The translations under genes and the position numbers were made by a program. The notes below the pieces were generated by a model. The model had not been told where the DNA came from. It saw only the letters and a program-made list of their open reading frames with translations, and did not search any database. This document shows positions 39,388 through 43,374 of a stretch of DNA of 64,000 bases, piece by piece. Location: assembly GCF_002286735.1 (NCBI RefSeq), contig NZ_NRTA01000006.1:62001-126000 (forward strand). The letters are read 5' to 3'. Positions within the stretch are counted from its first letter, which is position 1; the number at the start of each line of letters is the position of its first letter. The stretch comes from Leptolyngbya sp. BC1307. Lineage in GTDB: Bacteria; Cyanobacteriota; Cyanobacteriia; Phormidesmidales; Phormidesmidaceae.

Positions 39388-39873
39388 CTAGCCAGAAATC
39401 ACAATACCATCAGTCCCGCTGATCCGCTTGCGGAGACGAGAGAGCATCAGGTCATCTTCCATGCGCTGCTCTTTGTAACTGCGCTGCCACACAGGAGAGC
39501 CGGGCTGGTTACGCACCAAGTTGATTCGCTTAGCAGTAACCGCTTTGAACTCTGCAATAAAAGACGTTAGCAGTCGCGGCTTGCCAACCGTGACCCTATT
39601 GTTATGATAGTCCTGCAAGCATATCAAGGCGTGCAGCGCATCTGGCACAATTGCCCACTGATCTAGCAAAATCCCTTCGTGGTCAGCCGCAGAGAGTAAT
39701 AGCTCATCAGCCACAATCTTTGCATGAGAAGAGACGAAGGCTGACGTGCCTGAGTATTCGGCAGGCAGGTTTTTCTGGGGTTCAAACAGGTTTTGGCCGC
39801 CGTGCGTTTTCAGCCGCACATAGTAGAGCGCTGTCTCGGCGGAGCAGTGATAGATCTGGGATATGTTTGTCAA
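39388..39873 (-). CDS. RAYT-like (Y1-transposase family) protein with altered HUH motif
   Basis: This 161-residue protein resembles REP-associated tyrosine transposases. The block RLLTSFIAEFKAVTAKRINL, then NQPGSPVWQRSYKEQ and MLSRLRKRI matches the C-terminal half, with Tyr133 in the nucleophile position. The HUH motif would be at residues 79-81 but reads A-L-H in VPDALHALI, so the first His is missing. The N-terminal half is also diverged. The protein may be inactive or domesticated. A 164-bp MITE lies about 240 bases away on the right. Confidence 0.65.
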   Translation of the reverse strand: MTNISQIYHCSAETALYYVRLKTHGGQNLFEPQKNLPAEYSGTSAFVSSHAKIVADELLLSAADHEGILLDQWAIVPDALHALICLQDYHNNRVTVGKPRLLTSFIAEFKAVTAKRINLVRNQPGSPVWQRSYKEQRMEDDLMLSRLRKRISGTDGIVISG

Positions 39874-40396
39874 CAGATGACCTGAACCCTTGAAAAGTCT
39901 CTGGTGTTAGACTGCCCAGCCAAGCCAAAAACTTACGGCAGTATTATAAAAATAAATCGGGTAGCAAAACGCACTAGCAACTCAGAAAGTCAATGTCTGC
40001 AGTGAGGGGCTTGACCCCCCTTGTCTATATAAACAAGGTTAAGAGGCCACTATCCGGTAATCTTTTAGCTCGGTTTTGAGCAGCTCGTTTCTCTAGAGAG
40101 TGGCATTGCTACCCAGCAATTCCAAATTCCAACTTACAGACGTTCATTTTGCCTCAACGAGGAACGAGATTACTGGGTTTCAGCCGCTGAGCTCTGCTAG
40201 TCAAATTTGACCCTGATGTGAGGTGAACGATAAATCAAGGGTTTTGAGTGTCCGTAGTCTGGAATTTGGAATTGCTGATTGCTACCTGAATCTCTAAGCC
40301 TGTCCTTTGCTCGTCAGACCAACCCTACAAAAGAAACTTACTCGCCCGGCTATCTTTTTGCTCGGCAAGTCATCGTTCTTAGCGTAGACTTTTTGA
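39874..40396. other. Intergenic region with the 164-bp MITE
   Basis: No ORF is supported between the RAYT-like gene and tRNA-Leu. The MITE at 40114-40277 with its target duplication occupies the centre. The flanks contain A/T-rich sequence without a clear promoter. Confidence 0.6.
40105..40286. mobile_element. MITE: 164-bp element with 18-bp TIRs and 9-bp target duplication
   Basis: The element 40114-40277 begins with CAGCAATTCCAAATTCCA and ends with its exact complement (40260-40277). The flanking 9-mer ATTGCTACC is repeated directly on both sides (40105-40113 and 40278-40286), as expected of a target-site duplication. The inner ends retain imperfect pairing. There is no transposase gene inside. 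The 9-bp duplication is compatible with IS families such as IS5/IS903, IS1 or IS10-like. Confidence 0.85.
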
Positions 40397-40478
40397 TGGG
40401 CAAGGAGAGACTCGAACTCTCACGACCGAAGCCGCCACATTTTGAGTGTGGTGCGTCTACCAATTCCGCCACTTGCCC
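40397..40478 (-). tRNA. tRNA-Leu (anticodon CAA)
   Basis: The minus strand gives an acceptor GGGCAAG pairing with CTTGCCC, the D-arm with GGTAGACGC, an anticodon stem CCACA/TGTGG with loop CTCAAAA (anticodon CAA), a class II variable arm GGCTTCGGTC, and T-loop TTCGAGT. The discriminator is A and CCA is not encoded. Confidence 0.95.
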
Positions 40479-40556
40479 AGTAGTAGGCCCCCAGTATACC
40501 GAATTTGCAGCCACTTAGCGGAGCAAATTTAGGAATCAAATTTCAGTGTCAAAACG

Positions 40557-43222: not shown

Positions 43223-43274
43223 TGTTAATCGCAGCCTTGGGCAGATTGCCGATGCACTACGCCCTGGATGCCAT

Positions 43275-43358
43275 GCGGGACTGGCGGAATTGGTAGACGC
43301 GCTAGATTCAGATTCTAGTGTTCGCAAGGACTTCCGGGTTCAAGTCCCGGGTTCCGCA
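43275..43358 (+). tRNA. tRNA-Leu (anticodon CAG)
   Basis: The acceptor GCGGGAC pairs with GTTCCGC. The D-arm contains GGTAGACGCG, the anticodon stem is CTAGA/TCTAG with loop TTCAGAT (anticodon CAG), the long variable arm is TGTTCGCAAGGACTT, and the T-arm contains GGTTCAAGTCC. The discriminator is A; CCA is not encoded. Confidence 0.95.
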
Positions 43359-43374
43359 TCAACACAGGTTAAGC

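Follow-up and report, generated by a model that had tools for sequence, protein, structure and literature searches.

MITEs are a common and known kind of element in bacteria, and the one described here adds a member to them. The closest case that we compared is the MITE of Microcystis aeruginosa PCC 7806, which, in the part of the published account used here, is 187 nt long, with imperfect 9-nt ends and 8-nt duplications. In two strains it numbers 31 and 33 identical copies, and its helper is likely of the ISL3 type (PMC11448079). The ISMae2 subgroup of the same source was considered by its description only. On the side of the IS that could move such an element, the relevant system is the IS4 family. 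The sections of the IS4 review drawn on here define it by the Y-(2)-R-(3)-E-(6)-(K) signature, with target duplications of about 10 bp that range from 7 to 13 bp, and give duplications of about 5 bp for the families split from it (PMC2266710).

The window (the whole stretch of 64,000 nucleotides that was analysed) contains one element of this type, an intergenic sequence of 164 bp at 40114..40277 on the plus strand. Like the Microcystis MITE, as far as that partial account goes (PMC11448079), it is short, has inverted ends and short direct repeats, and is linked to a helper IS through common ends and duplication length; it differs in its ends, which are 18 bp long and exact, in its 9-bp duplications, in its copies, which are few and have diverged, and in its probable helper, of Tn5 fold. 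The left terminal inverted repeat (40114..40131, plus strand; CAGCAATTCCAAATTCCA) and the right one (40260..40277, minus strand; TGGAATTTGGAATTGCTG) are exact complements across 18 bp, and the inverted repeat extends imperfectly beyond this, to 33 nt at 82%. Directly outside stand the left copy (40105..40113) and the right copy (40278..40286) of a target-site duplication, ATTGCTACC, identical in 9 of 9 positions. This agrees to the base with the sequence-only reading, which had described exact complementary 18-bp ends, a total length of 164 bp and a perfect 9-bp duplication. When we scanned for this architecture (an exact inverted repeat of at least 14 bases spanning 60-3000 bp, with an exact direct repeat of 8-10 bases directly outside) it was found once in the window and in none of 100 dinucleotide-preserving shuffles, and exact 18-bp inverted repeats were absent from a second set of 100 shuffles. 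There is coding room for at most 54 codons, and no ORF of at least 60 aa overlaps the element. The same reading had stated that the window holds no transposase with matching ends. Here the 18-bp end has no second match in the window at up to four substitutions, and tblastn with the matching transposase finds none there at E ≤ 1.

The element is placed between a RAYT-like gene (39388-39873, minus strand) and a tRNA-Leu (CAA) gene (40395..40479, minus strand; an Rfam tRNA), whose 3' end is about 110 bp from the right duplication. The RAYT-like gene, about 230 bp from the MITE, reaches 27.2 bits with the NCBIfam model REP_Tyr_transpos, below the cut-off of 80, and has no Pfam match.

Searching the rest of the genome (G000; 4.92 Mb in 222 contigs) for the 18-bp ends and for an IS that carries them had been proposed as the check on the MITE reading, and both searches were productive. 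The 18-bp end has 16 matches at up to two mismatches, compared to 0 for a reversed control pattern. Six of these are the ends of three full-length 164-bp MITEs, the window copy included, and one belongs to a partial copy on C93. The two further full-length copies are at C4:103758-103921, 82% identical to the window copy and with the duplication absent (2 of 9), and at C96:4440-4603, 75% identical and flanked by CTGTGAGAG in 9 of 9 positions. The IS accounts for the remaining matches: two are the ends of an intact copy on C83, one belongs to a decayed copy on C66 with its transposase in three pieces, and six are IS ends near contig edges. Two pairs of the latter are joined by a common 9-mer (C25/C33 by GTCAATAAA and C79/C101 by CTGGATAAA), and those at C58 and at the other end of C101 are without a partner. 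Given these split ends, we infer that the IS is probably multicopy in this genome and was broken up by the assembly.

The intact IS (C83:5781-7302) is 1522 bp long, carries both 18-bp ends identical to those of the MITE, is flanked by a 9 of 9 duplication (CTGAGCTGC) and has an open frame of 444 aa. It is inserted in a TetR-type gene: rejoining the flanks with one copy of the duplication gives a frame of 237 codons that matches TetR_N at 3.7e-11, and a relative in G065, of another genus of the same family, can be aligned without a break across residues 26-221 (51% identity). The match between MITE and IS is confined to the outer 28-30 bp of each end, at 93%, and further in, the matches are 10-13 bases long and no better than chance. 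The MITE thus consists of two ends with unrelated DNA between them and is not a shortened C83 IS. A simple internal deletion of a C83 IS copy was considered as its origin and rejected, since nothing in the IS convincingly corresponds to the middle. With the further copies and the same-ended IS in one genome, the reading of the element as a MITE is well supported. We consider it almost certain that the 164-bp element is a MITE, non-autonomous and made of two IS ends that enclose some 105 bp of unrelated sequence; it is an ordinary one, with a probable parent element in the same genome.

The MITE also has matches outside its own genome. The query matched 6 of 58 genomes, its own included; the others are four congeners (G001, G005, G006 and G004) and G009, which belongs to another genus. 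The congeners G002 and G003 are without a match. In G004 the match consists of pieces of 27-53 bases only, and the best match in G006 is 143 bases. An overlapping search of the 63 genomes of the family gave matches in eight, the extra two (G062 and G063) by 23 and 58 bases only. We examined 24 MITE-sized stretches, leaving the G004 matches and several of those in G001 out of the duplication count. Both ends at MITE length were present in 15 of them, ten of which are from G001, one is an element of 313 bp, and eight lack an end within five mismatches. The duplication is 9 of 9 in six of the 15 full-length copies, 6-8 of 9 in three and at most 3 in six. The copies without a duplication count against the MITE reading; the C4 copy (2 of 9) is one of them, and so is each of the three 142-bp copies of G001. 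Across the aligned set of 15, the window copy shows 72-85% identity to the rest.

The 142-bp copies of G001 (L160, L163 and L164) are 94-95% identical to each other, with ends that are exact or have one mismatch and with duplications of 0-3 of 9; their flanks are unrelated. The 313-bp element, also of G001 (L168 433-745, on G001:C1), has the same ends and a 9 of 9 duplication, TGGCAGAAG, and has only the ends and one end region (46-52 bp) in common with the 164-bp MITE. These shared ends thus occur in elements of a second size class.

The transposase is matched in 32 of the 63 family genomes, mostly by fragments, and G000 is the only one of the genus's seven genomes in which a full-length frame was found open. 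G001, G005 and G009 have MITE copies and transposase fragments only, and G006 has copies with no transposase found; the drafts may hide intact ones. A plasmid search gave no match to the MITE at 1e-5. In viral contigs the 18-mer was found in seven stretches, where the match to MITE and IS is that one end only, of 18-20 bases (E ≤ 0.01), and no transposase relative was confirmed in these seven.

Base-level evidence of insertion comes from a sibling copy, G005:C125, which has the duplication TGAGGATCT and interrupts a protein-coding frame. The same frame is uninterrupted over all 192 residues in G003, in G002 and in the window's own genome (C3:139261-139836), at 72-78%; G004, G006 and G001 match only parts of it. 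The three uninterrupted genomes provide base-exact empty sites, with 74-79% identity over 577 bp; each has a single TGAGGATCT, and the alignment runs across the junction ungapped. A single copy of the 9-mer and a gapless junction in three genomes establish insertion with a 9-bp duplication for this MITE family.

At the window site itself the picture is less complete. The MITE is absent from the orthologous interval in six of six congeners, in which the flanking genes are present, and the six stretches give no match to the element at E ≤ 1. A base-exact empty site was sought here and rejected, as only the flanking genes align in the six congeners. The gap from the conserved left block to the tRNA was measured in four of them as 185, 228, 592 and 721 bp, and the interval has diverged too far for the pre-insertion bases to be visible. 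The element's own duplication is the only sign of movement at this site, which counts against the MITE reading, and the absence from the congeners says only that the insertion is younger than the splits from those examined or that the element was lost in them.

The sequence-only reading had also called the transposition recent. The transposition stands. As to its age, the ends and the duplication are perfect, but the closest copies found are only 85% (in another species) and 82% (in the window's own genome) identical, and no near-identical sibling is among the copies found. Taking the 18 unchanged bases of the duplication, the per-site change is at most about 15% (95% bound); adding the ends, 54 bases are unchanged and the bound falls to about 5%. 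The ends are presumably kept by the transposase for as long as the element moves, so the bound of about 15% from the duplication alone is the fairer one. Altogether this gives a weak indication that the insertion is recent.

The presumed helper transposase on C83 is difficult to classify from sequence profiles. Its 444 residues include the putative DDE residues D129, D218 and E343, which by alignment are invariant in 15 of 15 proteins. By itself it matches the Pfam model DDE_Tnp_1 at E 0.013, below the cut-off, and it has no match at E ≤ 0.1 in NCBIfam, the curated IS4 models included. Over the 15 members, the helper among them, DDE_Tnp_1 matches eight (best 1.4e-6), and the NCBIfam IS4 models transpos_IS4_2 and IS4_1 match four (best 8.1e-8) and two (8.5e-8). 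The ISAs1, IS701 and IS1380 models match two to three of the 15 each, more weakly than the IS4 models. Among solved structures a sequence profile search gave no match at E ≤ 1. The fold was judged from an AlphaFold2 model (mean pLDDT 85, pTM 0.87) of an Adonisia relative, a protein 66% identical to the helper and other than the helper itself, for which the input was 16 sequences that are 39-89% identical to that relative. The top Foldseek match of this model is Tn5 transposase (E 4.8e-11, TM 0.55), and VIA-align places it on Tn5 with Z 23.7 and an rmsd of 4.5 over 368 residues; piggyBac, at Z 14.0, is the first match that is neither a Tn5 entry nor the transposase inhibitor. Judged from its relative, the helper is predicted to have a Tn5-like fold, and it likely works as Tn5 does.

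This fits IS4 in several ways, as far as the parts of the review used here describe the family (PMC2266710). The helper IS has a single-frame DDE transposase, its 1522 bp fall within the 1350-1550 of the IS50 subgroup, its 9-bp duplication compares with 9 in IS10 and 8-9 in IS50, it has 5'-CA ends as several IS4 subgroups do, and Tn5 is the closest solved fold. However, the strict Y-(2)-R-(3)-E-(6)-(K) pattern that defines the family is found in none of the 15 proteins, the helper included; each of the 15 carries R-(3)-E-(7)-K, and the tyrosine is replaced by G or A. On the same partial description (PMC2266710) this IS resembles IS4 in its duplication length, and in having an incomplete motif it resembles the families that were separated from IS4. 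One relative, 48% identical and located on a plasmid of Gloeothece, is annotated as an 'ISNCY family transposase', the annotation alone being compared. ISNCY is the 'not classified yet' holding category of ISfinder. Given an IS4-like duplication, an incomplete motif and a relative annotated as ISNCY, we do not claim membership in IS4.

The relatives of this IS extend beyond the cyanobacteria. We scanned 29 of the 53 loci found, with end and duplication optimised together and the register thus self-chosen. The duplication is 9 of 9 in six and 8 of 9 in one, no inverted repeat was found in two, and the remaining 20 have fewer matching positions or lack a flank. The six with 9 of 9 have ends of the CAGCAATTC or CAGCAGTTC type and span 1401-1656 bp; by record title they come from Myxacorys almedinensis, Halomicronema sp., the cyanobacterial MAG MH1_Bin12, Fischerella sp., a Caldilineaceae MAG and Brucella endophytica. 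In L073, which is among the six, a stop falls within the transposase frame. The ends and the 9-bp duplication length recur across phyla among these relatives, though in 23 of the 29 the scan gave no 9 of 9 duplication, which counts against the MITE reading with its same-ended IS. CAGCA[AG]TTC ends with 9-bp duplications occur in Cyanobacteria, Chloroflexi and Proteobacteria, and proteins with R-(3)-E-(7)-K and no tyrosine come from Cyanobacteria, Chloroflexi, Acidobacteria and Rhodospirillales. These features could define one coherent and formally undescribed IS family, with a Tn5-like fold, the tyrosine-less R-(3)-E-(7)-K motif, CAGCA[AG]TTC ends, 9-bp duplications and a length of about 1.4-1.7 kb, to which the window MITE would belong. 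We put this forward tentatively and hold it to be rather unlikely. The first 16 bases of the end have no match in the literature searched, a search to which ISfinder and subscription journals were beyond scope.

In the mechanism that we propose, the shared ends would be bound and paired by a transposase from this group of IS, and the MITE would be cut out; the most likely source of the enzyme is the co-resident 1522-bp IS. The excised element would be joined into a staggered 9-bp cut in the target, and repair of the stagger would leave the direct repeat. The MITE would contribute its ends only. Cut-and-paste chemistry of this kind is known for Tn5 from the Tn5 and IS4 literature. A rival explanation concerns the identity of the helper only. 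A transposase other than that of the C83 IS, for example from a same-ended relative that is extinct or escaped detection, may have moved the MITE, which would leave the MITE reading itself as it is and is a possibility of some weight, if an unlikely one. In its favour, the C83 IS has nothing related to the middle of the MITE, G001 holds ten of the 15 full-length copies but gave transposase fragments only, and similar ends with 9-bp duplications occur in the IS relatives. Yet the MITE and the C83 IS share identical 18-bp ends and the duplication length, and the only other transposase matches in the genome are the pieces of the decayed C66 copy, although drafts may hide intact copies.

Explanations that do without transposition fare much worse. 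The inverted ends could instead be a REP/RAYT-type palindrome or another functional hairpin, such as a terminator or an RNA, tied to the RAYT-like gene; the weak REP-associated tyrosine transposase match some 230 bp away would suit this, and the strand folds better than its shuffles (z of -4.0 as DNA and -5.1 as RNA). Such a fold is what inverted ends give, however, and over the 15 copies only 2 of the 23 predicted pairs show changes on both sides, with a covariation term of 0.05. The element has no terminator or promoter match, and at gathering scores the Rfam matches in the window are two tRNAs only. REPs are not known to have duplications or to share their ends with a DDE-type IS, and we regard a hairpin of this kind as very improbable. 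That an inverted repeat and a direct repeat came together by chance, in favour of which nothing was found, can be dismissed for practical purposes, as 0 of 100 shuffles reproduce it and homologous copies in unrelated flanks refute it. We therefore retain the reading of a MITE, most likely mobilised by a same-ended IS.

What the locus provides is a documented cyanobacterial MITE-IS pair with base-exact empty sites for a sibling copy, which should be useful for annotation and for dating insertions within a genus. It leaves the understanding of MITEs as it was. It also points to a Tn5-fold IS group whose motif is off the definition of IS4; the group's representative here falls below every Pfam cut-off.

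An RNA, promoter or terminator function of the MITE was also considered, and is unsupported by the Rfam, promoter/terminator and covariation results. From what the sequence offers, no effect on the tRNA or the neighbouring genes is indicated. The tRNA-Leu (CAA) gene next to the element (40395-40479, minus strand) is one of two tRNA-Leu genes that stand less than 3 kb apart, the other (CAG) being at 43274-43360 on the plus strand, and the two have inverted 14-mers in common.
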